This document shows, piece after piece, positions 15,629 to 31,794 of a stretch of 52,333 bases of DNA. This DNA is from Actinomycetota bacterium. Its GTDB lineage: Bacteria > Actinomycetota > Humimicrobiia > Humimicrobiales > Humimicrobiaceae. The position numbers and the translations under genes are program-made. The stretch covers positions 1-52,333 of the forward strand of contig JAMDEN010000083.1 of NCBI GenBank assembly GCA_023487035.1, given 5' to 3'. A model generated the notes under the pieces. It was given only the letters and a program-made list of their open reading frames with translations, did not search any database and was not told the origin of the DNA. How positions within the stretch are numbered: position 1 is the stretch's first letter; the number at the start of each line of letters is the position of its first letter.

Positions 15629-15923
15629 TTTTACCTCAATTCCTATTTGCTATTTATGATTAATTTCTTATTTTTTTAACTTTTAAATTTTAGTAAATTT
15701 CAAATCAATAAAATTTTTTATTAAAAACATCACAACATAATTAATGATATAATTTTGATAAAAATAAACCTTACATTTTCGCTTTAGTATAGTTATTTAT
15801 TATAGTTAAGTAAATCAATCAAATACTGAGACCGAATTCCGCTTACTTCATCACTTACTATCCAATATATTTGTAACCACTATAATCACTAGTATTAATA
15901 CATTAATATATATTATATTTCTA

Positions 15924-16418
15924 CTAATCCCAAAAATTAATTTTCCAGCTCCCATCTTCCTCTTTTACCAGTGACACAACAAGATCCTTGTAAACTTTTT
16001 CTTCATTATCATAACTGTCTGTTAAATCTATTCCGACATTTGCAATATTATTTTTTACTTCTACCCAGTTTATTTTAACCTCAACAATTTTAGTAACATT
16101 TCTAAATTCTTTTTTAAAATCATCAAAATTATGATTTGATTTATCCTTAGAAGATATTAAATTAAATGCTTCATTAAGACTATCTGACTGCAAATATTTA
16201 AAAAAATTATCAACCACATCAACAGCAGCATTCATTTCATCTTCTCCTGACAATTTGCTCTTTAAAAGAGTTTTAATGTCTACTTTTTTACTGCAGCCTG
16301 CTGCGCTTATGATAAAAACTATTATAATGAAAAAAATAGAGGTATAAATAAGAAATGATTTCAAGAATATTTTTAATGCCGAATTTAAATTTTTTAATTT
16401 AAAATTTATCTTCATCAT
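15924..16418 (-). CDS. Small lipoprotein, NTF2-like (DUF4878-type) fold likely
   Basis: A 164-residue protein with a basic N-terminus, a hydrophobic signal segment (about residues 19-40) and the lipobox ISAAGC, predicting a lipid-anchored protein with the mature Cys at about 42. The mature part begins with a helix VVDNFFKYLQSDSLNEAFNLIS and continues into beta strands ending KEEDGSWKINFWD. This layout (a helix of accumulating function in a small cone, and a final GSWKI strand) is that of NTF2-like lipoproteins such as DUF4878. These are found at the surface of many anaerobes; the function is unknown. It stands alone, with about 300 bases of AT-rich DNA on each side. Confidence 0.75.
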   Translation of the reverse strand: MMKINFKLKNLNSALKIFLKSFLIYTSIFFIIIVFIISAAGCSKKVDIKTLLKSKLSGEDEMNAAVDVVDNFFKYLQSDSLNEAFNLISSKDKSNHNFDDFKKEFRNVTKIVEVKINWVEVKNNIANVGIDLTDSYDNEEKVYKDLVVSLVKEEDGSWKINFWD

Positions 16419-16768
16419 AATATCCTAAATTATAATTTAAAAATAAATATTTAAGAATATTTGATAAAAATAAATTAATAATCTTTTAGAATCCTTTCGA
16501 CATGAACATGGAAGCTTAATAAAAAATTGTTAAAATCATATTGATATCATTACCATTGTCAGAATTATATTATATGCCCTTGACTATTTAGCACATATCA
16601 GTAGATCAAATTTATAGATTTTTTATATATATCCTGCACATGATTTATTACAGTTCTTTATATATCAAACCTATTAAATCTCGAAGTAAGATAAACATTA
16701 TGATATTCAGTACTGAAGTTTCTCAAATACTCAAAGACTATTTTCTGCTGGTATTTTAAGTTTTATTT
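16419..16768. other. Intergenic stretch without a recognisable gene
   Basis: 350 bases of AT-rich sequence between the lipoprotein gene and the catabolic cluster. No open frame of note, no RNA fold, no repeat and no clear terminator were seen. It separates the housekeeping block from the accessory catabolic regulon. Confidence 0.5.
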
Positions 16769-17443
16769 TTATTCTACAATTATTACCCTGCAGGGTAAAC
16801 CTGTAGTATTAAGGATTTTTAAAGGACAGACATATAACTTTACCTTGTATTTAGTAATTTGTTCAATATTTATTAAGGGAGCAACAATTAAAATATTATT
16901 ATTAAATATTAAATCCCATATTCCCTGTTTGCCTTCAACATTATCAAAAGAAGGAGTGTCAGCAGCAAATATAAAGGGGGTTTTACTTACCAGATACTCC
17001 ACTGCATCTTTTTTAAAAAACCAACTATTTGTTAAAAAATCAGGCTTATCCCAATGCTGTCCCCAACCAGTAGCAAAAATAATAGCAGACCCATTGAGAA
17101 TTTCATCTTTTTCAGCAGCTTTAACATCTGCTTTAGTAATGCAAGGTCTGTTGCCTATTTTAACTATTTTTTCCAAATTAAATTTCAACACATATGCATC
17201 TATCCCAAAAAGTTTTTCAATCGGAACATCGTTTATGGCATAAGATTTTTCTAATCCTAACGCGTGTGATGGACCATCAATATAAGTTCCTGTTGCTGAT
17301 GATAAGCCTTTAAACTCCTGTGAATATGCAGTAAAATCAACCCATTCAGGGTTTTTAAGATCAACCAGTTCAAAGTCTGGAAATGGTGGACCATAAGACC
17401 ACATTCCATTATAAATTGGTCCTGAAGCATCAATTATTTTCAT
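16769..17443 (-). CDS. Cyclase-family protein (kynurenine formamidase-like fold) with altered metal motif
   Basis: A 224-residue member of the PF04199 cyclase/amidohydrolase fold, which includes kynurenine formamidase and isatin hydrolase. The start MKIIDASGPIYNGMWSYGPP resembles the family N-terminus (D-L-S-x-P-I-x-x-G-M), and SAIIFATGWGQHWDKPDFLT is the second conserved block. The metal motif, normally HxGTHxDxPxH, is here SATGTYIDGPSH (about residues 48-59): both His in the first half are replaced (by Ala and Tyr), while the Asp and final His remain. Metal binding is therefore probably changed or lost. It is the last gene of the leftward catabolic cluster, 72 bases after a MocA-type dehydrogenase gene, and may act on an amide, lactone or related ring. 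Confidence 0.7.
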   Translation of the reverse strand: MKIIDASGPIYNGMWSYGPPFPDFELVDLKNPEWVDFTAYSQEFKGLSSATGTYIDGPSHALGLEKSYAINDVPIEKLFGIDAYVLKFNLEKIVKIGNRPCITKADVKAAEKDEILNGSAIIFATGWGQHWDKPDFLTNSWFFKKDAVEYLVSKTPFIFAADTPSFDNVEGKQGIWDLIFNNNILIVAPLINIEQITKYKVKLYVCPLKILNTTGLPCRVIIVE

Positions 17444-17515
17444 AAAAATTCCTTTTAAATAATAAATTTATAAATAAAAATATTATTAAAAAATCTAATT
17501 GTACTATTAAAATAA

Positions 17516-18535
17516 TTATTTCAGATAAACAGTATTTTTATTTTTTGCAGACTCTATTGCTGCTAAAGTTAATTTTAATGATTCTCTTCCATCAGCAATT
17601 GTTGCTTTTTCTATAGGTCTATTAAAATCAAGGCAGTTAATAAAATATTCGCATTCGGTTAAAAATGGGTCTTTTTGTTCTACATTAGGTACATACACCG
17701 ACCCGTCAGACCTGTAAACTATAAGATCATTTTTCTGGTTTCTTTCCTCAATATTTTTCCCAGCTCTAAATACCCATTCTATAGTACCATTTTCGCAAAT
17801 AATTCTTAACACCATCGTAAAAGGAAAGTTTCCAGTAAAACTCCATCCGCCTTCAGCAAAGCCAGAAAAACCATTTTTAAATTCAATATTTGTTGTTATA
17901 TGTACAAGCCCACCCAATTTGGGATTATAAACACCTTGCGACTTTACAATAACTGGTTTACCCAGGAGCCATATCAGGTAATCAAGGTCATGTATATGAA
18001 GGTCTAAAGCTGCACCTCCACTATGCTTTTCATCAAAACCCCACTTGTTTACATGCCAATCGGGTGTTACAGTAAGTCTCTCACTAAATGCAAATAAAGG
18101 TTTGCCAATATCACCACTATCCACTATTTCTTTTGCCTTAATATATTCTGGCCAAAACCTTAGAACATGTCCAACCATTGCTTGGACTTTATTTCTTTTA
18201 ACAGCCTCAATAATCTTGTCAGCCTCTTCTAAACTTAAGGAAAGTGGTTTTTCGATTAAAAAATCCTTACCTGCATTAGCTGTTTTTATTGCCATTTCTG
18301 AATGTAGAAATGTTGGAGAACAAATATCAATACAATCAATATCCGCTATATTTTTATCATTTAAAAGTTCATCTATATTTGAAAAATAATTTGCATCAAA
18401 TTGATCTGCTAATTTCTTACCTTTTTCTTCAATGCTATCAACTATTGCAAATATCCTTGCATTGTTGATCTGTTTATATGTGTTGGCATGAACCTGCCCA
18501 ATATAACCAGCACCAATAATTGCTACATTTATCAT
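17516..18535 (-). CDS. Gfo/Idh/MocA family oxidoreductase
   Basis: NAD(P)-dependent sugar or polyol dehydrogenase family. The Rossmann motif is NVAIIGAGYIGQVHANTY at the N-terminus, followed by DCIDICSPTFLHSEMAIKTANAGKDFLIEKPLSLSLEEADKI with the conserved E-K-P. The catalytic block GGAALDLHIHDLDYLIWLLG (about residues 173-192) holds the Asp-x-x-x-His pair typical of the family. I chose the ATG at 18535, since AGGAG lies seven bases before it; a TTG two codons earlier is too close to the ribosome site. It lies between the epimerase and cyclase genes. Similar proteins act on myo-inositol, scyllo-inositol or glucosides; the substrate here is unknown. Confidence 0.85.
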   Translation of the reverse strand: MINVAIIGAGYIGQVHANTYKQINNARIFAIVDSIEEKGKKLADQFDANYFSNIDELLNDKNIADIDCIDICSPTFLHSEMAIKTANAGKDFLIEKPLSLSLEEADKIIEAVKRNKVQAMVGHVLRFWPEYIKAKEIVDSGDIGKPLFAFSERLTVTPDWHVNKWGFDEKHSGGAALDLHIHDLDYLIWLLGKPVIVKSQGVYNPKLGGLVHITTNIEFKNGFSGFAEGGWSFTGNFPFTMVLRIICENGTIEWVFRAGKNIEERNQKNDLIVYRSDGSVYVPNVEQKDPFLTECEYFINCLDFNRPIEKATIADGRESLKLTLAAIESAKNKNTVYLK

Positions 18536-18579
18536 TAACAATCTCCTAATTTAAAATATAACTAAAATTTAATTTTATA

Positions 18580-19383
18580 TTATTGGACATACCCAAAACT
18601 CTTTAAAAAATCATAGGATTTCTTAACATCTGCATTTATTTCTTTTAGAGAATGATCTTTGCCTTCATACTCTATCTCTACACTCATTGGACCAGAATAA
18701 TCTTTTAATAATGAAAATATTTTCTTAAAATTTGTTTTACCACTACCAAGAGCGGGGAAGTTCCATTCAAATAATTTGCCACCACTATCTTTTAAATGTA
18801 TAAATGCTATATAAGGAAGTGCATATTGTATATCTTCTTCAGGCTTTACTCCCCCATATAACATTACATTTCCTGTATCGTAATTAAGCCTCAGGTTGTT
18901 TTTATTAACTTTTTTTATGATTTCTGCTCCTTTTTTTGCATTATTGCAGTAATTTCCATGCGTTTCCAGACAAATCGTAATGCCATTTGCACCAGCATAT
19001 TCAGCAATTTCATTTATATCTTTAAAGAATTTTTTTTCATCCTCATCTGACTTAATTTCACCAGCGTCAGTCGTAATAAATTTAACATCACATAATTTAG
19101 CAAAATCAATTAGCTTTTTAAAATTTTTAACAGTATCTTCCTTCATCATTCTTGTATGACCAGCAATTGCATAAAGTTCCAGTTCATATTTTTCACATAA
19201 GCGTAAAAGATTTTTTGCATCAGCCTCGGTACTTAATTCTGGCCTTGGCAAAATATGCTCAAAATAACTTGGTGCAGATGCCATTTCAACATATTTAAAT
19301 CCTGCTTTTGAAATTCCATCTAATGCTTCTAAAACATTATTTTTTGGATATGTAGATGTGACTACGCTAACAATGTTCTTCAT
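18580..19383 (-). CDS. Sugar phosphate isomerase/epimerase (xylose isomerase-like TIM barrel)
   Basis: A 267-residue AP-endonuclease-2-fold TIM barrel, the family of IolE, IolH, IolI and hydroxypyruvate isomerases. Visible metal-site segments are GFKYVEMASAPSYF, LYAIAGHTRM, FITTDAGEI, GITICLETHGNYC (metal Glu), RLNYDTGNVMLYGG (metal Asp), YIAFIHLKDSGGK (metal His) and MSVEIEYEGKDH (metal Glu). All expected metal ligands are present, so an active enzyme is likely. It lies 45 bases upstream of the dehydrogenase gene, suggesting that the two act in sequence on one sugar or inositol derivative. The exact reaction is not determinable. Confidence 0.83.
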   Translation of the reverse strand: MKNIVSVVTSTYPKNNVLEALDGISKAGFKYVEMASAPSYFEHILPRPELSTEADAKNLLRLCEKYELELYAIAGHTRMMKEDTVKNFKKLIDFAKLCDVKFITTDAGEIKSDEDEKKFFKDINEIAEYAGANGITICLETHGNYCNNAKKGAEIIKKVNKNNLRLNYDTGNVMLYGGVKPEEDIQYALPYIAFIHLKDSGGKLFEWNFPALGSGKTNFKKIFSLLKDYSGPMSVEIEYEGKDHSLKEINADVKKSYDFLKSFGYVQ

Positions 19384-19580
19384 ATTAACACCACTCTTAT
19401 AAAATTTTTTATATTAAAATTAAAGTTTAAATTTTGTTAACTTCTTCAAAATTATTTAATATTTTTGCTTTCAAAAAATACTTATATGGAAACTAAAAAA
19501 TATCACAAACATTAATTATATTTATAAGTACATTTTTGTTTATTATTCTTAAATATGCTTCTAATGTATGATTAGCAATA

Positions 19581-20444
19581 TTACTCTGACCAGTTTGTTG
19601 TCTTATTACCTACAATTGTCATTATTATCCATATGGAAATCCCAATAAGTGCAACTAATAAAATTATTGCAAAGAAATTAGACATTCTTGCTAATGACGC
19701 GTAATATGATATTCTATTTCCAAGTCCGATCTTGCCACCAACCATATCAGATCCTACAGCAGTTATTAATCCAAAAATTCCTCCTACTAATAAACCTACA
19801 TTAATCATAGGCAATGCCAATGGAAATCTGATTTTATAAAAAATTTGAAAAGTAGATGCACCATATGATTTTGCCAGAGCTATTTTTGCTAAATCAGTTC
19901 TTCTAAAACCTGTTGTTGCATTAATCATTACCATAGGACCTGTTGCAAGAGCTACAGCAAAAATACGTGGTCCTATCCCAAACCCCCAATATAGCATTAA
20001 TAAAGGCACTAAAGCAATTGTTGGTGTTGTCACTAATATCAAAATATATGGGGTAATTATTTTTTCTATAAATGGCATTTGGGTAAGTACTGCAGCCATT
20101 ATAAGTCCTACCGCCGCTCCAATTAAATACCCAGATACAAGTTCTGCTAATGTAAAAAGTAAATGCTGATAAATATTTGGGAAAGAAGTAACGAGTGCAA
20201 CAATGATTTTGCTAGGAGGTGGTAGAATAAAATCTGGCACATTAAGAACCCTTACAAGTAGTTCCCACAAACCAATTACAAAAATAGCTACAGCAATAAT
20301 TCCAACTGTTTGTTTCCAGCCGCGAATTTGCGTTGAATAAGCAGCACTAGAAATATTCAAATTAGAAATTTCCTTAGAATGGGTATCCTGTTTTTCTTCA
20401 AAATCAGGAACTTTTTGTTCTAATTCTTTATCATAACTATCCAT
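19581..20444 (-). CDS. ABC transporter permease (NitT/TauT type)
   Basis: Membrane subunit of an importer of the SsuC/TauC/ThiX type. An N-terminal cytoplasmic tail of about 42 residues precedes six predicted membrane segments (about residues 45-280). The conserved interaction loop is FRRTDLAKIALAKSYGASTFQIFYKIRFPLALPMI (about residues 174-208), containing the EAA-like pattern A..YGAS..Q.F..I..P.ALP. It follows the ATPase gene by 95 bases. The family carries sulfonates, nitrate, thiamine precursors and many other small compounds; the substrate cannot be named. Confidence 0.88.
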   Translation of the reverse strand: MDSYDKELEQKVPDFEEKQDTHSKEISNLNISSAAYSTQIRGWKQTVGIIAVAIFVIGLWELLVRVLNVPDFILPPPSKIIVALVTSFPNIYQHLLFTLAELVSGYLIGAAVGLIMAAVLTQMPFIEKIITPYILILVTTPTIALVPLLMLYWGFGIGPRIFAVALATGPMVMINATTGFRRTDLAKIALAKSYGASTFQIFYKIRFPLALPMINVGLLVGGIFGLITAVGSDMVGGKIGLGNRISYYASLARMSNFFAIILLVALIGISIWIIMTIVGNKTTNWSE

Positions 20445-20539
20445 AAAAACTCCTTACAAAATATAGCTACTGATTAATATTTATTTAATAAAAAAAATAA
20501 ACCAATCTATTTATTAATATTCATATTTTTATTCATAAA

Positions 20540-21355
20540 TTAGGTGATAGTACTATAAGCTTGACTTTTATACTTACCTTCTTTTTTTTGCTTTTCAACA
20601 TCTTCAACAATTTTTCTTTTTATCTCAGCAACAATATTAAAATATCTCATTTCCATTGTAATTCCTTCAGGCCTTGGTCTAGGTAAATCTATATTAAAAA
20701 TTGCTGAATTTGTACCAGGTCTTGCTGTCATTACATATACTTTATTTGCAAGATATACTGCTTCTTCTATCCTATGCGTTACAAAAACTATAGTTTTTTG
20801 GGTTTTCTCCCATAATTCCAATATTAAAGTATCCATCTCATCTCTTGTATATGCATCTAGAGCACCAAAAGGTTCATCCATAAGCAATATTTGCGGATCA
20901 AACGAAAGTGCTCTTATAATTGAAGCTCTTTGTTGCATTCCTCCTGATAACTCTCTCGGATGATGATTTTCAAATCCATCAAGCCCAACACTTTTTATTA
21001 AATCTTGTATTTTACTCTTATATTCCTTAATATTCTTACCCATTATTTCAAGTGGAAAATATATATTTTGAATTAAATTTCTCCAAGGAAGAAGATTTGC
21101 TTGTTGAAAAACAATTCCTACACTTTGTCTAGGTTTGTCAACAATTTTATCAAGTATTATTGCTTTACCTGAAGTAAAAGGATGTAGTCCGGTTAAACCC
21201 CAAAGTAATGTCGTTTTACCGCAACCACTAGGACCAACAATTGCTACAAAATCTCCTTTTTCTACTTCCATTGAAAAGTTTTTTACAGCTTCTACTGGTC
21301 CTCTATCACTATCATAAGTCTTACTAACATTTTCAACTATTATATCTTTAACCAT
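20540..21355 (-). CDS. ABC transporter ATP-binding protein (NitT/TauT type)
   Basis: Cytoplasmic ATPase of the importer. Walker A GPSGCGKTT at residues 41-49, Q-loop FQQANLLPW at about 83, signature LSGGMQQR at 136-143, Walker B LLMDEPFGALD at about 157-167, switch His in FVTHRIEEA. The NLLPW and MDEPFGALDA motifs are typical of the SsuB/TauB/NrtD group. At 271 residues it is of normal length. The ATG has GGAG upstream. A stable hairpin separates it from the binding-protein gene, so it is probably expressed at a lower level than that gene. Confidence 0.92.
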   Translation of the reverse strand: MVKDIIVENVSKTYDSDRGPVEAVKNFSMEVEKGDFVAIVGPSGCGKTTLLWGLTGLHPFTSGKAIILDKIVDKPRQSVGIVFQQANLLPWRNLIQNIYFPLEIMGKNIKEYKSKIQDLIKSVGLDGFENHHPRELSGGMQQRASIIRALSFDPQILLMDEPFGALDAYTRDEMDTLILELWEKTQKTIVFVTHRIEEAVYLANKVYVMTARPGTNSAIFNIDLPRPRPEGITMEMRYFNIVAEIKRKIVEDVEKQKKEGKYKSQAYSTIT

Positions 21356-21372
21356 TTAAGCTCCTTGACTTT

Positions 21373-21418
21373 AAAACAGCTGCTAATCTTCTGCTTGGCA
21401 GAGACCAGCAGCTGTTTT
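21373..21418 (-). terminator. Stem-loop between binding-protein and ATPase genes
   Basis: AAAACAGCTGCT at 21373-21384 and AGCAGCTGTTTT at 21407-21418 form a perfect 12-bp stem, with an inner TCTGC-TTG-GCAGA hairpin in the loop. In the direction of transcription the stem ends in a run of T. It could act as an attenuating terminator or an RNA-stabilising end that favours the binding-protein transcript over the membrane subunits, a common layout in ABC importer operons. Confidence 0.65.
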
Positions 21419-21469
21419 ATTTATAAAACTATTATCTTTAAAATCATTTCAAAATAATAATCTACAATT

Positions 21470-22675
21470 TTACCAGTTTCCTGTAACTTCCACATTTTTC
21501 CATGTATCATCTAGTTTGAAGTTTTCAGCATCACTTTTTACTTTTGCTTTATCAAAACTATTAATATCCTTTATTAGATCATTTGTAATTACCTGATCTA
21601 CTGTTAAATGATTTTTAGTTTGTCCTAATTGATAAATAGTATCTAGATAATTTTTCCATGAATCTACTGGAGACATACCATAACCACCAAGTTTTCTTTC
21701 ACTTTCTGTATACGCCCAGTGCAGTTGATTCATTGAATCCAAAGCAAGCTTTGGCGTCATTTGCTCTCTCACAGCAGCAAATTTATTATAAGTTATTTGT
21801 GCAGCTGCTCGCGGATTTATTCTTGCAAATTCAATTCCCATTGCTGCTGCTTTAAAGAATTTTACATATAAATCTTTCTTTGCAGAATCACTTAAATCTG
21901 ATTTTCTTACACAATAACCATTTGCTGGGTGCTTTGAAAATGTCTCACCAATTAAATATCTTAAATTAAGACCTTGAGCATCCCACTGTGCTCTTAAACC
22001 TCTCCAACATAAAGCAGCATCTGCTTGACCTTGTGCTACAGCCTGGCCCCAAGATTCTCCAACAGTTACATATTTTACAGATTTTGGATCTATGCCAGCT
22101 TCAACAAGTATAGGATCAACGATTACAGTCCAGCCTGACATACCTATTGAAATTGTTTTCCCTTTAAGATCTTGTACAGTTTTAATTGGGCTATCTTGTT
22201 TAACAGCAAAGTCAAAAACCTGGCTTGCCATCATTTCAAAGACTTGTATTACATCCATACCTGTATCAACACTTGCTGTAAGAACACCTGGAGAAGGATA
22301 CCCAACATCTGCTTTTTTCTGATCAACAAATTTTGTTGTTGCTAAAGCATCATTAGGTCCCGGTTCCATATCAACATCAATCCCAAAATCTTTAAAATAA
22401 CCCATTTCAATTGCAACCCATAAGTTATAATCATCCATAACTTCAAGAGTCCCTCTCGGACTTATAAATGTCATCTTTGTTAAATTCCCAGGCGCAGCAG
22501 TAGTTGTTGTCTCTTCGGCAGCCGCAGCAGTAGTTGTTGTCTCTTCGGCAGCCGCAGCAGTAGTTGTTGTCTCCCCCGTAGTTGGAGCATTTGATTTACA
22601 TCCAACAAAAGAAAAACTTACAACTAATAAAATTATTAAAACTGTTACAAAAAATAATAGCGTTATTTTTTTCAT
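21470..22675 (-). CDS. Lipid-anchored NMT1/THI5-like substrate-binding protein
   Basis: Extracytoplasmic binding protein of the importer. The signal segment (about residues 4-25) ends in a lipobox FSFVGC, so Cys26 is the lipid anchor. A linker of about 40 residues follows with near-perfect repeats of TTTTAAAAEE. The binding domain starts near residue 66: KMTFISPRGTLEVMDDYNLWVAIEMGYF, then DQKKADVGYPSPGVL, VQDLKGKTISIG, GESWGQAVAQGQADAALCWRG. These are typical of the NMT1-like group that binds pyrimidines, taurine or other small compounds. It precedes the ATPase and permease genes in the same direction. The gene has a strong GGAGG-type ribosome site. Confidence 0.88.
   Translation of the reverse strand: MKKITLLFFVTVLIILLVVSFSFVGCKSNAPTTGETTTTAAAAEETTTTAAAAEETTTTAAPGNLTKMTFISPRGTLEVMDDYNLWVAIEMGYFKDFGIDVDMEPGPNDALATTKFVDQKKADVGYPSPGVLTASVDTGMDVIQVFEMMASQVFDFAVKQDSPIKTVQDLKGKTISIGMSGWTVIVDPILVEAGIDPKSVKYVTVGESWGQAVAQGQADAALCWRGLRAQWDAQGLNLRYLIGETFSKHPANGYCVRKSDLSDSAKKDLYVKFFKAAAMGIEFARINPRAAAQITYNKFAAVREQMTPKLALDSMNQLHWAYTESERKLGGYGMSPVDSWKNYLDTIYQLGQTKNHLTVDQVITNDLIKDINSFDKAKVKSDAENFKLDDTWKNVEVTGNW
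22493..22572 (-). repeat. 30-bp tandem repeat encoding the lipoprotein linker
   Basis: Two perfect 30-bp units (22501-22530 and 22531-22560) are followed by a 12-base partial unit and preceded by 8 matching bases. Read as protein they give TTTTAAAAEE repeated. The unit length is a multiple of three, so gain or loss of units would keep the frame and only change linker length. The segment is far richer in G and C than its surroundings. Confidence 0.85.
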
Positions 22676-22869
22676 TTTGTGTCTCCTCCTTACACTAATG
22701 AAATTTATAAATACCTTTAAAACTTAAAAAAGATATGATAATTATTCTATAATCTACCTCCTTCTAAAAATTTAAAAATATCTAATAATTTCTAAAATAA
22801 AAATAATGTTTTAGAAAATATAAATTCCTCCTTCCTTATAAAAATAATTCCTGTTATTAAAAAATTATT

Positions 22870-23799
22870 TTAATGCATCTCAGCTTCACAAGTTCCTAAT
22901 GCTGGTTTATAAAAATTAAATTGAACATTAGAATGATCGGCCAATAACGACATTGGTACAGATGAATCTTGAATCTTTTTAGAAATCATATATGTTGTAA
23001 GCCTCATTCCAAATGGGTTATCATGCATTCCTGCATGCCATATTGAAACTTTATCAGATTTCCAAGTTTCAACAGGACCTACTGTTATCGCTTCTGAAGG
23101 AATATTTGAAACAACTCCACCTGCTGAAGTCCTTGCATTTTGTATGAGGGTTATTGGATGTAGCTTTACTACTCTTGCATTTAACTTTCGAAATTCTTCA
23201 GGCAATGGAGGACTATCTTTGTATCTTCCTTCTCTTCTTACAGGATCATTAAAAGCCCAATGTTTTGTCTCTCCCTGACCACCTTGCATAATAAGGCATT
23301 TAATGCTGTCGTAAGATTTAGAATATTCTTCAATATTATCAGCTCTTAAAAAATGAATATTTTCATCAGGCATTCTTAAGTCTTTCCTAATTTTATTAAA
23401 ACATAAATCCATATCAGCTTTTGCAAAACTTAAAGGATTAGTAATAGGAGCTTCTTTTCCATTAATAAACCATTCATCCATAGCCCAAAAATGTCCATCT
23501 TTAACATTTATTTCAAGATCATTTACAATTTCTGCTACAAGAGGCAGTTGCTCTGTTGGACCAATAGGACCACATATTCCTACAGGGTTAGTACTTGTAG
23601 ATTTTTGCCAGCAATATATATATTCAAGAGCTTCAGCCACATAAAAAGATTCAAGGGTATCATAAAACTTTACAGTAAAGCCCGGTCTTGAAAGATTTAG
23701 CATATCGTCTGCAGTAAGTTTTGCAGCTTCTTTTAGTATTTCTTCATCTAAAGTAGTATAATCCCACCACTCTGGAGCAATCTTACTTAAATTCCTCAT
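22870..23799 (-). CDS. Glucosamine-6-phosphate deaminase/isomerase-like protein (NagB superfamily)
   Basis: A divergent NagB/6-phosphogluconolactonase-fold protein of 309 residues. Family features: a Gly-rich phosphate loop region [18 protein letters not shown] (about residues 73-90), [12 protein letters not shown] corresponding to the NagB MDEY catalytic block, and [21 protein letters not shown] corresponding to GxDGHIAFNEP with its His. Later come [19 protein letters not shown] and the C-terminal [13 protein letters not shown]. Classical NagB is about 240-260 residues; this one is longer. I start at the ATG at 23799, which has AAAGGGGG before it. It stands between the M20 and binding-protein genes. 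It may isomerise or deaminate a phosphorylated amino sugar, but the divergence leaves the reaction open. Confidence 0.7.
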
Positions 23800-23905
23800 T
23801 TTTCCCCCTTTCAAAAAATTTTCAGTAAATCAGTTTAATATATTCAAATTAATTTAAGTTAATTTCTTTAAAATAATTATAAAATCTAAAAAACCAATTA
23901 AATTA

Positions 23906-25198
23906 TTAACCACACCACTCATTTATAAATATTATAAATATGGTAATAAGTGAATATATATCCTCCAACAATACCCATTCATCTGAACCATGAATATTAT
24001 CACCACTTGGACCTAAAATTATTACCGGCATTTTACCCTGATCTCCGTAAATAGCCATATCACATGACAAAGATGCACCACTGACAACCTGGCTAATCTT
24101 TGTATAATTCTCATAAACTTCAATCAGTTTCTGAATTCCACTATCATTTAAATCAGATTCCCAAGGTCTTACATAATGAAATGTGGGTATTATTTCAAAT
24201 TCAAATAATTTTAAAATTGGATCAGTTTTGAAACTCTTTTCCCAGAACTTTTTAAATTCATTATAAAAATATTTTTCACTCATACCTGGGTAAGACCATA
24301 CAATCCATGAAATTTTTGTCATAAGGGGATTTCCCATTTGTGTAAACTCTCCTGGTATTTTTGAGTCTATATCCCATAAAAGTATATTTAACTCTTTCCC
24401 CGGTTCATTAAATAAATCGTGTTTATTTACAGATCTCCAGTATTTTTCCCATTCCTTAAATAGTTCAATAACTCTTGCAGCGCCATTTATCGGATTGGGA
24501 ATTGAATAACCCATAAAAGGCATACCACCTGCTTTACCTTTTAAAACTAAATCTCCTAAAAATGCACCCAGGCATGCCACACAAATCTGCATCCTTGTAG
24601 GTTCTGTAAGAATTGCCAGATCAGCATTATATCCTTTAAGTCTAGATGCCAATGTCCCATTACCGCCTGCAAATTCTTCATCAACAACACTTTCAAAAAT
24701 TATGTCCCCTTGCGGTTTAAAACCTATTTCTTTTAATATCCTGATAGCCCAGTATGCTGAAGCCAAACCACCTTTCATATCAACAGTACCTCTTCCATAA
24801 AGCTTTCCGTCTTTTTCAACGGGCTCGTATGGTCTGCATACTTTCCAGTTATCAGGTTCAAAAGGTGCAACATCTACATGCCCGCTAAATAATAAGGATT
24901 TACCTTTTTTTATTCCTTCCCATTTTGCAACAACATTTTTCCTGTTGTTTGAATAATATCTTCCATTAAGCCAGAAAGGATTATCTTTTATCCCTGGAAT
25001 ATCTTCAGGTGAAAACATATCTGTTTTAAGTCCGATAATTGAACACTCTTTTTCAATAAATTTTTGAGCTTCTCCCTCATTTCCATTCGGAAAACGGTTT
25101 TCACTTGGAAAACGCACCAGAGACTTTAGCCATTCAATAATTTCACCTTTTCTTTTTGAAACTTCTTTCTGAACTATTTCCGGAGTTATTTTTATCAT
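23906..25198 (-). CDS. M20 family metallopeptidase/deacylase (ArgE/DapE type)
   Basis: A 430-residue di-zinc hydrolase of the ArgE/DapE/ACY1 family, removing acyl or aminoacyl groups from small amides. Metal ligands are visible: LLFSGHVDVAPFEPDNW (His, about residue 106), GRGTVDMKGGLASAY (bridging Asp), VVDEEFAGGNGT (catalytic Glu and metal Glu), AILTEPTRMQ (metal Glu), and HGSDEW near the C-terminus (last His). The dimerisation/lid domain lies at about 210-330. Its ATG overlaps the stop codon of the M24 gene by 4 bases (ATGA), so the two are translationally coupled and probably act on the same substrate. Confidence 0.88.
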   Translation of the reverse strand: MIKITPEIVQKEVSKRKGEIIEWLKSLVRFPSENRFPNGNEGEAQKFIEKECSIIGLKTDMFSPEDIPGIKDNPFWLNGRYYSNNRKNVVAKWEGIKKGKSLLFSGHVDVAPFEPDNWKVCRPYEPVEKDGKLYGRGTVDMKGGLASAYWAIRILKEIGFKPQGDIIFESVVDEEFAGGNGTLASRLKGYNADLAILTEPTRMQICVACLGAFLGDLVLKGKAGGMPFMGYSIPNPINGAARVIELFKEWEKYWRSVNKHDLFNEPGKELNILLWDIDSKIPGEFTQMGNPLMTKISWIVWSYPGMSEKYFYNEFKKFWEKSFKTDPILKLFEFEIIPTFHYVRPWESDLNDSGIQKLIEVYENYTKISQVVSGASLSCDMAIYGDQGKMPVIILGPSGDNIHGSDEWVLLEDIYSLITIFIIFINEWCG

Positions 25199-26361
25199 AA
25201 TTCTATTATTTCCCTTTTATAACTTGTAAGTTCTTTTATACCTTTATCAGTAATTAAAATTCCATCCTCATAACGTAAACCGTTAATTCCATCTGAAAGC
25301 CATATATCAATATTAAAAAGCATTCCGGGTTCTATAATAAAATCTGCATTCTCTGCAAGCCAAAAACCTTCAACCTCTGAATGTCCAGTTCCGTGTGCAG
25401 GTCCATATAAAGTAAAATTTTCATAACCATAATTAGACAGAATCTTATAATAACCATCAAATATACTTGACGCAATTATTCCAGGTTTAATATTATCAAG
25501 TGCATACTGAAATGCTTCCAATGCAACTTCCATCAATGCTTTGGCTGATTTGGGAACTTTACCTATTGAAAAAGGTCGGCACATATTACCGCAATAACCC
25601 ATATATTTTGCTCCAAAAGTAAACTGTATTAATTCATTTTTTTCTATAGGCTTATCTGTCGAGCGGCATAAGCTCAATCTTGTATGATCACCTGAACATA
25701 CCCATGACGGATAAGGCATCCCTTCTGCACCCATGGATAACATTTTTGTACGTGCAATAGCTTCCACCTCCCACTCTTTCATACCAGGTTTTACAGCATT
25801 AAGAGCAGTTTTCATTGCTTCTTCTGATATATGGTATGCTTCAATAATATATGGTATTTCATCTTTTGATTTTATTTTTTGAACATTTAATAATAGATTA
25901 TCTGCTCTAGAAAATTGTGCATCTGGAACAGCCTTATTTAATTCTTTAAATAATACATAAGGGAAAATATTCCAGTTACCTATACCAATTTTTTTTGGAT
26001 TCTTTTTGCAGACTTTTGAAATTATTTCACTAAAATTCATTTCATCCACTTTTGGTACCCACTCGGGTGCACAAGTTTCAACAAGCAATGGATTTATAAA
26101 TATTAAAGGTACTGATGAAAATTCTTTTGCAAATTCATATGATTCAGGTCCACCTGTTAAAAGTGCAGCTTTACCTTCTGCAGGAACAATTACAACAGCA
26201 AAATCAAAAAAAGGCCAGAAACCTGTTAAATAACGTGAAGAAGCAGATTCACATTCACTACTGTAACTTATAAACAAATCAATTCCATTTTTATTTAATT
26301 CTTTTTGTAATCGAGCTACCCTATCGTCATATTCCGAAGAAGGGAGTGGATTTAATCTCAT
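25195..26361 (-). CDS. M24 (creatinase/aminopeptidase P fold) protein lacking metal ligands
   Basis: A 388-residue protein with a creatinase N-terminal domain (about residues 10-150) and a pita-bread catalytic domain (about 165-380). In metal-dependent M24 peptidases the ligands sit in D-x-G ... S-D-x-x-R, H, E and E. Here the first pair reads FTFGAKYMGYCGNMCRPF, with Thr and Asn at the two Asp positions. The next motif keeps GTGHSEV, the fourth reads FNIDIWL (Asp for Glu), and the last RYEDGILIT keeps Glu. This resembles the metal-free non-peptidase branch of the family (creatinase, ectoine hydrolase DoeA) rather than a dipeptidase. Coupled with an M20 gene, it recalls the DoeA/DoeB pairing, though the substrate here need not be ectoine. 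Confidence 0.8.
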   Translation of the reverse strand: MRLNPLPSSEYDDRVARLQKELNKNGIDLFISYSSECESASSRYLTGFWPFFDFAVVIVPAEGKAALLTGGPESYEFAKEFSSVPLIFINPLLVETCAPEWVPKVDEMNFSEIISKVCKKNPKKIGIGNWNIFPYVLFKELNKAVPDAQFSRADNLLLNVQKIKSKDEIPYIIEAYHISEEAMKTALNAVKPGMKEWEVEAIARTKMLSMGAEGMPYPSWVCSGDHTRLSLCRSTDKPIEKNELIQFTFGAKYMGYCGNMCRPFSIGKVPKSAKALMEVALEAFQYALDNIKPGIIASSIFDGYYKILSNYGYENFTLYGPAHGTGHSEVEGFWLAENADFIIEPGMLFNIDIWLSDGINGLRYEDGILITDKGIKELTSYKREIIEL

Positions 26362-26433
26362 TACCTTGCCTCCTGATATCAGCTATCTATAAATATAAAA
26401 TTTTCGACTAATAAAATATCGCATTAATTATTT

Positions 26434-26790
26434 CTATTTTTTGCCTTTATCGAACCATTGATTTTTATTTCCTAAATACTGCATAAGTTCAACGACAGTG
26501 CCATCTTTGTATTCATAAAAACCAACTTTTAAAAAACCTCCAACTTCAAATGGTTCTAAAAGTACTTTAAGCCCTTTTGATGCCTCTTCTAAATTATCTA
26601 CGTTATAAGCTATATGACTTCTCTCTCTTACCGGGCCTTTTACAGGTGTGTCATTTTCATAACGTAACCATTCAACATGAAAAGGGTGATCTTTTGGATT
26701 AGTAACCCAGACTCTTGTTGATTCCACCCAATTTTCATCATCCTTTTTTTTATCTGTTATTAATCCAACATGATCAAACTCCATTTTCAT
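26434..26790 (-). CDS. VOC (glyoxalase/bleomycin resistance) domain protein
   Basis: A 118-residue protein of the vicinal-oxygen-chelate fold. It begins KMEFDHVGLITDKK, with the family-typical F-x-H-V-G-L strand and His ligand. The second half has SHIAYNVDNLEEASKGL, resembling the second ligand block, and ends with VGFYEYKDGTVVELMQYLG with the E ligand. These are the positions that hold a divalent metal in VOC enzymes. Members can be isomerases, epimerases, lyases or dioxygenases. A good ribosome site (GGGAGG) precedes the ATG. It lies between the M24 and dehydrogenase genes and probably handles an intermediate of the same pathway. Confidence 0.78.
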   Translation of the reverse strand: MKMEFDHVGLITDKKKDDENWVESTRVWVTNPKDHPFHVEWLRYENDTPVKGPVRERSHIAYNVDNLEEASKGLKVLLEPFEVGGFLKVGFYEYKDGTVVELMQYLGNKNQWFDKGKK

Positions 26791-26868
26791 TTAATTGCCT
26801 CCCTTATATATTCATAAAATTATTACTGGTTTATGTTTCTGTCTTATAAATAATTAATAATTTAAAAG

Positions 26869-27870
26869 CTAAAATTCAATTACCCTATTTTCTTTTGCTG
26901 ATTTTTCTGCCATCCTCATAGCATAAACTACATCCCTTGATTCCTGAGGTGTTATTATTGTTGGCTTTTTCCCTTCTGAAATACACTTAAGGAAATAATC
27001 GAATTCTTCTTTTAGATACCCTCTTCTCATCCCATGGACTTTCGGCCAATATGTAGATTGAGGATAACTTATACCTTTTTTTGTAAGAACAGAATAATAA
27101 TCGCCTGAATTATTAATATTAATGATTCCGTCTGTGCCTATTATTTCCATTTTTGCATCAATAGCAAAGGGGGCATTATCAGGTAAACTCCAAACATTCT
27201 CGATAACTGCAAAAGTTCCATCATCCAGTCTAAAAAAGGCCCATGCTACGTCATCATACTTAAATTCAGGTCGAGTACTGGTAGTCTGTGCATAAACTGT
27301 TTTAGGTTTTGCACCTGTATACCATAACATTAAGTCAAAATCATGTATCCCGTCACCAAATAATGCACTTATTTTATTTAGTGAACTTTCTGTTATCCAT
27401 TTGGCAAGATTTCTTTTTGCATGAATGGATATTATCTTACCAATACTGCCTGCATCAATTTCTTCTTTTGCAAGAGCATAAGCCGTATCAAATCTGCAAA
27501 CATGTCCTACCATAAAAAATTTATCAGTATTTTTTAAAGCTTCCAATATTTTGTCACATTCCTCAGCATTATTTGCCATAGGTTTTTCAAGAAATACATG
27601 CTTCCCTGCATTTATTGCATCTATTGCCGGCTGCATATGGTCGTAAACATGTGTAACTATTGAAACCATGTCAATATCCTTATCAGCAAGAAGTTCATGA
27701 TAATTAGTATATGTCTTCTTAATATTATATTTGTTAGCAATTTCTTTAAGGCGTTCCTCACGTCTAGTACAAACAGCAGTTACATCCGCAAGAGGAAGTG
27801 CTTGCAGAGTATCGATATGATGCTCACCAAACCATCCTAAACCAATAACTCCGACTTTAATTCTTTCCAT
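26869..27870 (-). CDS. Gfo/Idh/MocA family oxidoreductase (first enzyme gene of the regulon)
   Basis: NAD(P)-dependent dehydrogenase of about 333 residues. The Rossmann motif is KVGVIGLGWFGEHHIDTL, followed by DMVSIVTHVYDHMQPAIDAINAGKHVFLEKPMANNAEECDKI with E-K-P, and the active-site block FGDGIHDFDLMLWYTGAKP (Asp-Gly-x-His-Asp). The open frame extends 13 codons upstream to 27909, but the ATG at 27870 is preceded by AAAGGAGGT 11 bases away, so I take that as the start. A strong promoter with operator-like repeats lies about 200 bases upstream, placing this gene at the head of the catabolic transcript. Substrate unknown; inositol- or glucoside-type compounds are common for the family. Confidence 0.86.
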   Translation of the reverse strand: MERIKVGVIGLGWFGEHHIDTLQALPLADVTAVCTRREERLKEIANKYNIKKTYTNYHELLADKDIDMVSIVTHVYDHMQPAIDAINAGKHVFLEKPMANNAEECDKILEALKNTDKFFMVGHVCRFDTAYALAKEEIDAGSIGKIISIHAKRNLAKWITESSLNKISALFGDGIHDFDLMLWYTGAKPKTVYAQTTSTRPEFKYDDVAWAFFRLDDGTFAVIENVWSLPDNAPFAIDAKMEIIGTDGIININNSGDYYSVLTKKGISYPQSTYWPKVHGMRRGYLKEEFDYFLKCISEGKKPTIITPQESRDVVYAMRMAEKSAKENRVIEF

Positions 27871-28063
27871 ATTTATTATTACCTCCTTTAAAAAAATAAT
27901 TTGCTTCACAAATACATTATTAATTTTAAGCTCACGATATTAATTTATTATGGATTTATTATGGCCTTATTGCATATATTCTTTTTGTTTTATAACTAAA
28001 ATTTAGATCTTAAAAATATTAAAAAATTTTTTTAATACTCCCTTAATTATTCTTAAGCCTTAC
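27871..28063 (-). other. Long untranslated leader of the catabolic operon
   Basis: About 200 bases separate the predicted transcription start from the first start codon. The stretch is AT-rich, with no open frame and no riboswitch fold that I recognise. The remaining part of the gap, 28108-28287, towards the lacI stop codon, holds only A/T tracts. Confidence 0.4.
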
Positions 28064-28107
28064 ATTAACGTTAATATTACTTTATCGTTAATGTTAAATT
28101 TTGTCAA
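28064..28107 (-). promoter_or_regulatory. Promoter with two operator-like repeats in front of the catabolic operon
   Basis: On the minus strand TTGACA (28102-28107) is separated by 17 bases from TAAAGT (28079-28084), a good sigma-70-type promoter. The perfect palindrome ATTAACGTTAAT (28064-28075), centred on CG as in LacI-family operators, lies at the expected transcription start. A second copy, TTATCGTTAAT (28082-28092), overlaps the spacer and -10 box. The matching 11-mers TTA(A/T)CGTTAAT are exactly 17 bases apart. Repression by the neighbouring LacI-type regulator is the simplest reading. Confidence 0.72.
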
Positions 28108-28287
28108 GTTTTATTTATTATTTATTATTAAAAAAAAGAAAAAAATTCTTATTTTTTATAAATTTCAAGATAATTTATCTTTTTTCTTCTTACTATTTTT
28201 TGAAAATATTTTTAAAAATGGAAAATAAGAATATAAGGATTTAAAATTTTAAAAAGAGGTTTTAATGATTTTTTATTTCATTTACAA

Positions 28288-29307
28288 TTATCTTACTATG
28301 AGATTGGTTTCAAATATATATTGTTTGAAATTGTCATGAAATTTTTCTTCAATATTACTTAACAATATATCAACAGCTTTATATGCAATTTTCTTTTTTG
28401 AATAGTTTACTGTTGTCAATGGGTAAGGATAAAAAAATCTTGATTGAATATTATCAAAACCAATAACGGGAATATTTTTAAATCTATTTTTATCTATATT
28501 TTGCAATGCATATATTATCTCCCAAGCTACTATATCACTAAACGCAAATACTGCACTAAATTCCAATCCCTCTTGAATAATCTTATTTATAGCTTTAATA
28601 CTATATCCAGAGGTATTTCCAACTTCTTTTATGAGATTTTCATCTAATTTAACGTTGTTTTCAACAAATGCTTTTTTATACCCTTCCAATCTTTCTTTAG
28701 CAGATGAAATATACCCTGGACCATTCATAAATAGAATCTTTTTATGACCTTTTTTTATAAGATAATCTATAGCTAAAAAACTTCCATGAACATCATCTGA
28801 TATTACATAATCCGTTTCCAAGTCATAAAATCTTCTTCCAAGAAGCACAAAAGGGACACCATTATTTATTAAAAATTTAATATCTTTATTATCTTTTTGA
28901 GTAGGGCATAAAATAATTCCATCAACATTTTTACTTAAAGCAAAAAATATTGCATCTTCTTCTATTTCATACTCTTCTTCAGTATTTATAATAAATGTGT
29001 TATAATTATTTAATCTCAGTCTTGTTTCTATGTCTTTTACCCATATAGCAATTAATGGGTCTGAAATATCAGGAACAATAGTAGCAATTGTTCTTGTCTT
29101 GCCTGAACGCAATGAACCAGCAATACTATTTGGGATATACCCCATCTCTTTAGAAACTTTGTAGATATATTCCCTAGTTGCTTTAGAAATATCTTCTTTA
29201 TTTTTTAAAGCTCTCGATATAGTATTTGCAGAAAAACCTGTTTTTTTTGCTATATCTTTTAAAGTTATTTTCTTTTTTCTGCCTTTATTTTCTGATAAAT
29301 CTTTCAT
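28288..29307 (-). CDS. LacI family transcriptional regulator
   Basis: DNA-binding repressor of 339 residues. The N-terminal helix-turn-helix is ITLKDIAKKTGFSANTISRALKN (residues 14-36) followed by the hinge GYIPNSIAGSLRSGKT. The periplasmic-binding-protein-like sensor domain covers the rest (about 62-339), with ATIVPDISDP, VDGIILCP, GVPFVLLGR, YVISDDVHGSFLAIDYLIKKGHKKILF and NIPVIGFDN. It is the upstream-most gene of the cluster, oriented like it, and is separated from the first enzyme gene by the promoter-operator region. It probably senses a sugar or polyol from the pathway. Confidence 0.93.
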   Translation of the reverse strand: MKDLSENKGRKKKITLKDIAKKTGFSANTISRALKNKEDISKATREYIYKVSKEMGYIPNSIAGSLRSGKTRTIATIVPDISDPLIAIWVKDIETRLRLNNYNTFIINTEEEYEIEEDAIFFALSKNVDGIILCPTQKDNKDIKFLINNGVPFVLLGRRFYDLETDYVISDDVHGSFLAIDYLIKKGHKKILFMNGPGYISSAKERLEGYKKAFVENNVKLDENLIKEVGNTSGYSIKAINKIIQEGLEFSAVFAFSDIVAWEIIYALQNIDKNRFKNIPVIGFDNIQSRFFYPYPLTTVNYSKKKIAYKAVDILLSNIEEKFHDNFKQYIFETNLIVR

Positions 29308-29533
29308 TCAGATAAAAAATAATTTTAAGTTTGTTTTTATATTTTTATTTTACTATTTTATTTTATATTATAATGGTAACACAATTTTAATCATAATAAT
29401 TAAAAATCATATTAAATATCTGTATTACTTTAATTTACCAGCCTATTTTTAGGATTGAAGTTTATTAATTCTTATTTTTAATACCTAATATTATAATGAT
29501 TAAATTAGAAAAATTCATAAGTTTAGTCAAATT

Positions 29534-29806
29534 TCAATAAATTTCTGAATGATTTCCAACGTCTATTAATATTATTTTGTCTTCGTCAATAATAAAGACA
29601 ATAAATATCCTATATGAAATACTAATTGATACAGAATAAAGATCTGATAGCTTCCCCTCTAATTTATGTAATCTTAGTGAAGGATGAAAAGGATTTAATT
29701 CTAAAAGTTTAAGTGTTTTTTCATATTGTAGGAGAATATCAGGATGTCTTTTAGAGAATTTTTTTGCCCTTTTAATATAACTTTCTGTATATATTATTTT
29801 AGCCAC
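29534..29806 (-). CDS. RelE/ParE-type toxin
   Basis: A 90-residue toxin-fold protein: IIYTESYIKRAKKFSKRHPDILLQYEKTLKLLELNPFHPSLRLHKLEGKLSDLYSVSISISYRIFIVF. The HKL-x-G-x-LxxxYSVxIxxxYRI(x)F pattern is that of the YafQ/YoeB/RelE group of ribosome-associated mRNA endonucleases. It overlaps the end of the antitoxin gene by 8 bases. It is the rightward end of the leftward-read catabolic region and the first of seven toxin-antitoxin pairs in the next 8 kb. Confidence 0.85.
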   Translation of the reverse strand: MAKIIYTESYIKRAKKFSKRHPDILLQYEKTLKLLELNPFHPSLRLHKLEGKLSDLYSVSISISYRIFIVFIIDEDKIILIDVGNHSEIY

Positions 29807-30056
29807 TTGTTATTCTTTTAATATGGTCTTCGACAGATTCTTCAATAAAGTTACCTGTTTCAATATCCATTTTTGACTGTCCTAACGCAGATTCAAGTTC
29901 GCACTCTCTTAAATAGTTATACGTCTCTATAGGAAGAACAATATACTTTGTTTTACCCCTTACAGTTATAGCAGTTTCAATTTCATCTGATGCAACTTTA
30001 TTTAATGCAGATACACCTTTAGTTTTAAGTTCATTTGCTGTAATTATGTTTACCAT
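29799..30056 (-). CDS. Phd/YefM-type antitoxin
   Basis: An 85-residue antitoxin. NIITANELKTKGVSALNKV is the DNA-binding N-terminus of the Phd/YefM family, followed by ITVRGKTKYIVLPIETYNYLRECELESAL, and a C-terminal toxin-neutralising helix. The open frame extends upstream to 30110, but the ATG at 30056 has AAAGGAG at the right distance, so this start is preferred. A near-consensus promoter with an AT-rich palindrome lies directly upstream, as expected for self-repression. Confidence 0.85.
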   Translation of the reverse strand: MVNIITANELKTKGVSALNKVASDEIETAITVRGKTKYIVLPIETYNYLRECELESALGQSKMDIETGNFIEESVEDHIKRITSG

Positions 30057-30081
30057 TATAACACTCCTTTTAGTATTATTA

Positions 30082-30110
30082 ATAATATTAATATTAGTAC
30101 TGCTTGTCAA
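30082..30110 (-). promoter_or_regulatory. Promoter of the Phd/RelE module
   Basis: On the minus strand TTGACA (30105-30110), a 17-base spacer and TATTAT (30082-30087). The spacer and -10 contain the palindromic AATATTAATATT, a candidate antitoxin operator. The insertion element starts only 15 bases upstream of this promoter. Confidence 0.65.
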
Positions 30111-30125
30111 ATTTTTATATTTTTA
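30111..30125. repeat. Target-site duplication, left copy
   Basis: ATTTTTATATTTTTA abuts the left end of the IS481-like element; an identical 15-mer abuts the right end at 31517-31531. Confidence 0.8.
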
Positions 30126-31516
30126 TGTCATTTAAAAGTTAAAAGTGAACTGTTTTTATTAAATTTAAAAGTTAAAAGTGAACACCTGCTTTAGCTATAA
30201 TTTAGATCTAAAAAGAAAGGATCTTAACTATGGCAAAGCAGCTTCATAAAAAATTTTCTGATATTCAGATTAAGGAACTTATCAGCCGGTATTAGAGGGT
30301 AAAATAAAAAGAGAACATATCCAAAAAGTACTGGGCATTGGTAAAACAAGATTTTTTACACTACTTAAAAAATACAGACAGGAACCTAATTTTACAATTG
30401 AATATGTAAGAAAAAATGCAACAAATAAAATAGCTCCTGAGGTGGAAGAAAATATAATGAATGAGCTTGCTATTGAGAAAAAATTAATAACTGATCCAAA
30501 TATTCCGCTCCGCTTATACAACTACAGCTATATAAAGGACAGGCTTGAGGAAGTATATAAACAAAAAGTATCTCTGCCAAGTATTATTTCAAGAGCAAAG
30601 GCAGCTGGCTTTTACATCAAAAAGAAAGATCCAAAAGCTCATGACAGAGAGGTCTTAACCAATTATCCTGGAGAGCTTATCCAGCATGACAGTTCCCATC
30701 ATAAGTGGAGTCCTTATGCTGACTCTAAGTGGTATCTTATCACCTCGCTTGACGACTATTCAAGATTTATCCTTTATACAGCTCTTGTGGAAAAAGAGAC
30801 AAGCTGGGCTCATATACAGGCTCTGGAGTATGTTATACTTAAGTACGGAATTCCAGCATCCTATTATGTGGACAGCCATTCAATATTTAGATTTGTTCAG
30901 GGCAGAGACTCCTTTTGGAGAAAACATTACAGTTTAACAGATGAAGTAGATCCTCAATGGAAACAGGTACTTTCTGAACTGGGAGTTGAAATTACATATG
31001 CACTTTCCCCTCAGGCAAAATGTAAAATTGAGCGTCCTTATGAATGGATTCAGGATAGACTTATTTAGGACTTGTGCAAGAGAAGGAATAAGCCAAATTC
31101 AAGATGCACAAAAGGTGCTTGGCCATGAAATAAATGCCTAAAACCATAAAAGGGTTCATTCCACCACCGGTGAAGTTCCTTATTTTAGATTTCAAAGAGC
31201 AATTAAAAACAATATTTCACTTTTCAGACAGTTTAGTCTTATCTACCCATATAAATCCACAAAGGATATATTTGCCTTAAGACTACAAAGAATAATTGAT
31301 GCCTATAGAAAAATATCCATAAGCAACCTACAGATAAAACTAAACTCTAAACCCAGAGAAACTAGATATCCGTATATATCCTCTAAATTCCCAGATTTCT
31401 GAGGTTAGATTCTGGGTTAGAGATGAGCTAATCGATATTCAAAAATTAAAGAACAGTGATTTAAAAATGGTTCACTTTTAAATTTTAAAGTGTTCACTTT
31501 TAAATTTTAGGTAACA
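30126..31516 (+). mobile_element. Decayed IS481-like insertion sequence
   Basis: A 1391-bp element with about 25-bp terminal inverted repeats. The left end is TGTCATTTAAAAG ... AAAGTGAAC and the right end is the complement of TGTTACCTAAAAT ... AAAGTGAAC. The terminal AAAAGTGAAC motif is repeated a second time inside each end (about 30167-30183 and 31470-31487). The perfect 15-bp direct repeat ATTTTTATATTTTTA abuts both ends. TG...CA ends and a long (4-15 bp) duplication are typical of the IS481 family. The transposase inside is broken. It sits between two toxin-antitoxin modules. Confidence 0.8.
30230..31481 (+). pseudogene. Broken DDE transposase of the IS481-like element
   Basis: The translation is continuous only when three frameshifts and one nonsense codon are bridged. 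MAKQLHKKFSDIQIKEL runs into a stop at 30293 after an apparent one-base loss. The next frame gives KREHIQKVLGIGKTRFFTLLKKYR and the catalytic core: GELIQHDSSHHKW (first Asp), LITSLDDYSRFILY, YYVDSHSIFRF (second Asp), KCKIERPYEWIQDRL (Glu), ending at 31068. A third frame carries on with an in-frame TAA at 31139. A last shift near 31360 leads to a final stop at 31481. The core keeps the D-D-E residues, so decay is recent. The family is assigned from the core and the element ends. Confidence 0.85.
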
Positions 31517-31531
31517 ATTTTTATATTTTTA
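31517..31531. repeat. Target-site duplication, right copy
   Basis: ATTTTTATATTTTTA directly after the right end of the IS481-like element, identical to 30111-30125. Confidence 0.8.

Positions 31532-31717: not shown

Positions 31718-31794
<77 letters not shown>

Follow-up and report, generated by a model that had tools for sequence, protein, structure and literature searches.

A predicted LacI regulon joining sugar-type enzymes to a NitT/TauT-type importer in an Actinomycetota bacterium, with a tentative link to amino-sugar conjugates

What compound is handled by a bacterial gene cluster in which sugar-type enzymes are encoded together with an ABC importer of the NitT/TauT type? Such importers are usually linked to sulfonates and small nitrogen compounds and, to our knowledge, are not known to carry sugars. 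The question is raised by positions 1 to 52,333 of contig JAMDEN010000083.1 of an Actinomycetota bacterium (assembly GCA_023487035.1; 2.2 Mb, 174 contigs), a stretch of 52,333 nucleotides hereafter called the window, in which 12 genes, all on the minus strand, span 16769–29307. From gene content, conserved association and a shared promoter-operator, the enzymes and the importer are predicted to form one LacI regulon, a comparatively well-supported conclusion. Tentatively, we favor a LacI-repressed operon for the catabolism of a small extracellular compound with an amino-sugar unit that is N-acylated or joined through another C-N linkage.

Read from 29307 down to 16769, the genes encode a LacI-family repressor, a Gfo/Idh/MocA dehydrogenase (GfoA), a VOC-like protein, an M24 protein, an M20 protein, a NagB-like protein of the NagB fold (NAGB), the NMT1-type binding protein (SBP), ATPase (ATP) and permease (PERM) of the importer, a TIM-barrel isomerase (ISO), a second Gfo/Idh/MocA dehydrogenase (GfoB) and a cyclase-family protein (CYC; Table 1). 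Open reading frames and Pfam/NCBIfam profile searches recover all gene families listed in the original prediction. Most of its labels are clear from Pfam (Cyclase PF04199, GFO_IDH_MocA twice, AP_endonuc_2 TIM barrel, BPD_transp_1, ABC_tran, NMT1 PF09084, M20, M24 with Creatinase_N, and LacI), whereas those of the NagB-like and VOC proteins rest on weaker evidence. The importer itself combines an NMT1-type binding protein (106.9 bits against PF09084) with its cognate TauC/SsuC-type permease and TauB-type ATPase, the composition of a NitT/TauT system, and its proteins score below every curated NCBIfam equivalog cut-off shown.

The first line of evidence that connects importer and enzymes is regulatory. 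The cluster carries a LacI-type operator, ACATTAACGTTAATGT, at a fixed distance behind TTGACA. Palindromes with a central CG are typical of LacI-family operators, and one is present at the cluster in all five genomes in which the relevant gap is available. Both copies in the window lie before GfoA. TTGACA followed by CATTAACGTTA at the same spacing stands before GfoA in the window and in loci L136, L138 and L181, and before the SBP gene in L138 and L134, so that four genomes have the operator ahead of enzyme genes and two have it ahead of the importer, five genomes altogether. Four other genomes repeat the promoter arrangement of the window, at five promoters in all, and alignment of the six promoters yields TTGACA and then CATTAACG at constant distance, with the operator overlying the -10 element and part of the spacer. 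LacI orthologues, 54–67% identical, adjoin the same genes in L134, L136, L138 and L181. A scan of eight genomes returned six sites with one mismatch or none, five of them at this cluster; at two mismatches the genome-wide scan was at control level, and no further regulon members are claimed. The sixth site, ACATTATCGTTAATGT with TTGACA nearby, belongs to genome G004 (L182, around 4432–4447), where a different set of ABC importer genes lies downstream of it.

Because L138 has one operator before GfoA and another before the SBP gene, the importer is tied to the enzymes, and the presence of the operator at both kinds of genes leads to the prediction of a single regulon, as had originally been proposed. 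Within the window no operator copy was seen before the importer genes; probably they belong to a joint transcript or have a promoter of their own. The gap between SBP and ATPase genes holds a strong hairpin (Table 1), and elements that process or attenuate transcripts often lie at such places; Rfam recognized no known RNA, riboswitches included, within 14000–31000.

The second line of evidence is the recurrence of these genes in other genomes. Relatives of the window in a public collection are labelled Actinomycetota metagenome-assembled genomes, and relatives of M24 and SBP were taken from genomes of three phyla. Among the 13 genomes with an M24 orthologue (at least 61% identity), M20 directly follows M24 in 11 and a further genome is cut off by a contig end, GfoA adjoins M24 in 10, and seven (the window, L134, L138, L101, L121, L159 and L160) have the importer no more than 10 kb from M24. 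The importer adjoins Gfo/Idh genes also in L060 and L161–L164. Since the same genes co-occur in genomes of three phyla with a shared promoter-operator, their grouping is better than chance, and these neighborhoods bear out the earlier view that importer and enzymes genuinely belong together. Whether the cluster splits into unrelated parts in relatives had been raised as a check: the M24-M20-GfoA block holds together, in Actinomycetota as well as Spirochaetota, whereas NAGB with CYC and ISO with GfoB are separable modules. L136 reads LacI-GfoA-M24-M20-NAGB-CYC without importer, and so does genome G116 (L137, LacI end from L181); L134 reads SBP-ATP-PERM-GfoA-VOC-M24-M20, L159 ROK-SBP-ATP-PERM-GfoA-M24-M20-NagB paralogue, and L101 SBP-ATP-PERM-VOC-GfoC-ROK-NAGB-GfoA-mutarotase-M24-M20, and the importer of Chloroflexota L060 and L164 is accompanied by VOC, ISO and GfoB without M24/M20. 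The window unites all these modules.

Outside these genomes little was found. Plasmid searches gave only distant matches for M24 (at most 28% identity), almost nothing for the NagB-like protein and, for SBP, a single relative (34%), which lies next to a DhaK gene of Sagittula stellata in a different cluster; no relevant paper on the gene combination turned up in a literature search. Near the cluster in L159 (17623–19804) and near the operator-like site in L182 (4554–6926), microcompartment-type shell and RnfC-like proteins were seen by eye in the translations. Separately, L147, L023, L025 and L029 carry a paralogous cluster with a cyclase-family protein (55–59% identical) and a distant NagB-like gene, joined by M20 in L029 and L147.

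The amino-sugar connection proposed at the outset holds up through the NagB-like protein and its neighbors. This protein has no Pfam match, a weak match to TIGR00502 (20.6 bits; cut-off 236.9) and, in a single-sequence search, no significant solved relative. Its family profile finds NagB (glucosamine-6-phosphate deaminases), and its AlphaFold model (pLDDT 87.6) has NagB structures as top PDB matches (3hn6, E 1.9e-15), which places it in the NagB fold. The MDE motif is kept. Asp72, Asp141, His143 and Glu148 have catalytic roles in NagB (E. coli numbers); Asp72 and His143 are retained as D113 and H185, Glu148 corresponds to D190, Arg172 possibly to R228, and Lys208 could not be placed in the alignment. 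Among 80 loci with NagB-like relatives, 43 have a PIG-L family protein within 300 bp, on the same strand in 40. In L135, a kinase-like gene, NagA (386 bits to TIGR00221; cut-off 225.65), a NagB paralogue, GfoA, M24 and M20 make up a single same-strand run; L159 and L122 combine NagB paralogues with a nearby PfkB-type kinase (that of L122 judged by eye), and L101 carries a NagC-like ROK regulator (147 bits, well under the NagC cut-off of 650). A second NagB-like gene, 24–26% identical, directly precedes the main one in L013, L034, L035 and L140.

Several observations weigh against an amino-sugar substrate or against one substrate for the whole operon. In the NagB-like protein, Asp141 is replaced by T183 (Val in the family consensus) and the phosphate loop TGGTP by an invariant CGPIGPTxQ, so the catalytic set is incomplete and the protein may not act as a deaminase. 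The operon of the window itself lacks NagA, PIG-L and the ROK regulator; for PIG-L this says little, because PIG-L genes are present elsewhere in the genome in all nine genomes tested. For the same reason, a mutual exclusion of PIG-L and M24/M20 was considered and dropped. Finally, the importer of the window together with ISO-GfoB looks like a later insertion, and the importer may therefore serve another substrate.

This last point opens the way to an operon shared by two pathways, which we consider rather unlikely: GfoA, M24, M20, the NagB-like protein and the cyclase would be an older core for an amino sugar, and the importer, ISO and GfoB a recent insertion for a different compound. The copy in the window is a mosaic: in L136 and L137/L032, NAGB and CYC are direct neighbors (with about 30 bp between them in L136 and L137), SBP-ATP-PERM-ISO-GfoB is interposed between them in the window, and the flank after CYC, a small lipoprotein-like gene and YmdB, is alike in L137 and the window. 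In trees of few taxa, the concatenated importer of the window groups with spirochaete L121 (support 0.915) and its M24-M20 pair with its own family (L135, 0.977), a result that is indicative only. The Chloroflexota importers, accompanied by ISO and GfoB, fit the same division. Against it, the importer of L101, L121, L134, L138, L159 and L160 is found near M24 in the absence of ISO-GfoB, with M20 also close by wherever the contig extends far enough, and L138 carries the same operator before both its importer and its enzymes.

Residue conservation in the M24, M20 and cyclase-family proteins bears on the chemistry. In a 12-sequence alignment, the family positions of the five ligands of M24 metallopeptidases (D, D, H, E, E) hold T248, N259, H323, D352 and E365: T248 and N259 replace the metal-binding Asp residues of prolidase, D352 replaces Glu, and H323 and E365 are retained (E365 graded nearly invariant, as one of the aligned sequences ends early). 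The five-ligand set is thus incomplete in the window protein; invariant are H323 and the cysteines C232, C257 and C261. M20, in contrast, keeps its metal ligands (H107, D140, E174-E175, E199 and H403, invariant in eight sequences). The cyclase-family protein scores 68.2 bits against PF04199 (threshold 23.1), and both His of the zinc signature HxGTHxD are replaced in 8/8 sequences. Since M24 lacks two metal-binding Asp and the cyclase both signature His, the chemistry of both is probably altered.

Creatinase and EutD are among the M24 members that lack a metal centre, which brings in a pathway for an ectoine-like or creatine-like solute built around the pair. Ectoine hydrolase EutD acts with the deacylase EutE, an N-acetyl-diaminobutyrate deacetylase (PMC5924519), an order resembled by M24 followed by M20, and creatinase (rank 14) and EutD (rank 34) are among the Foldseek matches of M24. 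However, prolidases rank first in that search and are closest by sequence too, the EutD equivalog is matched at 76.1 bits against a cut-off of 613, no ectoine-route aminotransferase or semialdehyde dehydrogenase was seen in the operon, and sugar-type enzymes dominate it; such a pathway is highly improbable.

The remaining sugar-type enzymes bear on two further alternatives. Catabolism of an inositol derivative, the other example given in the original prediction next to an N-acyl amino sugar, draws on the TIM-barrel protein and on IolG as best NCBIfam match of both dehydrogenases. Their scores (155 and 171 bits) are under half of the curated cut-off of 355, the isomerase reaches 33.7 bits against 290 for IolE, and no other iol gene was recognized in the cluster or examined relatives. 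While amino-sugar catabolism with a NitT/TauT-type importer in one regulon survives from that prediction, the inositol example has very little to recommend it. With E140, D169, H196 and E236/E238 invariant, the TIM-barrel protein is probably a metal-dependent isomerase or lyase. The VOC-like protein has no Pfam or NCBIfam match, a weak similarity to glyoxalase profiles (E 0.004) and invariant H7, H59 and E101.

A nucleoside or other N-glycoside is the second alternative: Gfo/Idh and TIM-barrel proteins would oxidize the sugar moiety and release the base by elimination, with M24, M20 and cyclase opening and trimming the N-heterocycle. For levoglucosan, a Gfo/Idh dehydrogenase and a sugar-phosphate isomerase are established to carry out oxidation followed by beta-elimination (PMC7676230), in other bacteria a xanthine/uric acid riboswitch controls NMT1/THI5-like and tauA-type genes (PMC7373994), the nearest solved relatives of SBP include the pyrimidine-binding 3ix1, and the L121 operon contains an Amidohydro_2 protein. 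Yet the region around the cluster is free of Rfam riboswitches, as stated above, no nucleobase enzyme was recognized in the window operon, and the NagA, NagB and PIG-L links would be left unexplained, all of which makes a nucleoside substrate unlikely.

Gene content, conserved association, the shared promoter-operator, the fold assignments and the loss of metal ligands are established from the sequence, and from them we infer a substrate class, an order of steps and a direction for each reaction under the amino-sugar reading. The compound would enter through the NMT1/THI5-type importer, and binding of the inducer, probably the substrate itself or an early intermediate, would free LacI from the operator covering the -10 region. 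The metal-poor M24 protein may then act on the C-N bond and M20 remove the acyl group, a sequence modelled on EutD-EutE. Oxidation of the sugar, followed by its isomerization or its cleavage by elimination, could fall to GfoA and the GfoB/TIM-barrel pair, on the model of LgdA-LgdB1 in the levoglucosan route, and the NagB-fold protein might release ammonia or isomerize the freed amino sugar; the VOC-like and cyclase-family proteins would serve in further steps. It is possible, if doubtful, that the metal-free cysteine-bearing M24, the zinc-less cyclase-family protein, the remodelled NagB-fold protein and the NitT/TauT-type importer together mark an undescribed pathway for an unrecognized amino-sugar conjugate of anoxic habitats. 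The cluster connects an importer family of few known ligands to a defined enzyme set in three phyla of mostly uncultured bacteria, and one ligand screen would thus help to assign several unnamed protein families; the operator offers a direct handle on the inducer of LacI.

Table 1. Features of the gene cluster, in window coordinates
Feature	Position	Strand	Basis or detail
LacI-family repressor	28288–29307	-	PF00356, Peripla_BP
Putative promoter	28079–28107	-	-35 TTGACA (28102–28107), 17 bp spacer, -10 TAAAGT (28079–28084)
Operator copy 2	28079–28094		ACTTTATCGTTAATGT, 2 mismatches; overlaps putative promoter
Operator copy 1	28062–28077		ACATTAACGTTAATAT, 1 mismatch; core ATTAACGTTAAT a perfect palindrome
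GfoA, Gfo/Idh/MocA dehydrogenase	26869–27867	-	PF01408; orthologues 63–80% identical
VOC-like small protein	26434–26790	-	118 aa; weak glyoxalase profile match
M24 pita-bread protein	25195–26361	-	PF00557, prolidase alignment, family alignment, fold search
M20 ArgE/DapE-type deacylase	23906–25198	-	
NagB-fold protein	22870–23814	-	Family profile, AlphaFold model
NMT1/THI5-type solute-binding protein of ABC importer	21470–22675	-	PF09084, family alignment
Hairpin between SBP and ATPase genes	21372–21419	-	-32 kcal/mol, z -6.4
ABC importer ATPase, NitT/TauT type	20540–21355	-	
ABC importer permease, NitT/TauT (SsuC/TauC) type	19581–20444	-	
TIM-barrel isomerase/lyase	18580–19383	-	AP_endonuc_2
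GfoB, second Gfo/Idh/MocA dehydrogenase	17516–18541	-	
Cyclase-family protein	16769–17443	-	PF04199

GfoA starts at an ATG after GGAGGT in a reading frame that itself opens at 27909, and the start of the M20 gene shares 4 bp with the end of the M24 gene. Downstream of the operon follow the housekeeping genes YmdB, TilS, FtsH and folate genes, TilS (12822–14663) carrying a long Lys/Asn/Glu-rich low-complexity insertion ahead of its C-terminal domain. Directly upstream (29534–38500), an integrase-core fragment is accompanied by toxin-antitoxin genes, among them those of a YafQ/ParE-like toxin with a Phd-type antitoxin and of several PIN-domain proteins. Further on, three genes in a row (43108–50594) probably form a restriction or other defense module. 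Their products are an Mrr_N-domain protein, a PLD+SNF2-helicase protein that matches HKD+Snf2 best in PADLOC (239 bits), and an Eco57I-type methylase whose best PADLOC match is a type IIG restriction-methyltransferase.

Among known systems, the nag operon (NagA, NagB, NagC) shares with these loci the NagB fold, the NagA of the L135 run and the NagC-like ROK regulator of L101, but no PTS was recognized in the examined loci, the window has LacI instead of NagC, and its NagB-like protein is far from the curated score with changed active-site residues. As in levoglucosan LgdA-LgdB1, a Gfo/Idh dehydrogenase adjoins a TIM-barrel isomerase-like protein, although GfoB matches levoglucosan dehydrogenase at 87 bits against a cut-off of 650. 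EutD-EutE (DoeA-DoeB) likewise combines an M24 protein without the usual metal centre and an M20 deacylase in a catabolic cluster with an importer, whereas the M24 protein of the window, far below the EutD cut-off, is nearer to prolidases and has sugar-type partner genes. With TauABC, SsuABC and ThiXYZ the window shares the NMT1 binding protein, the TauC/SsuC-type permease and the TauB-type ATPase; unlike them, its importer type, below the equivalog cut-offs, accompanies sugar-type enzymes in three phyla.

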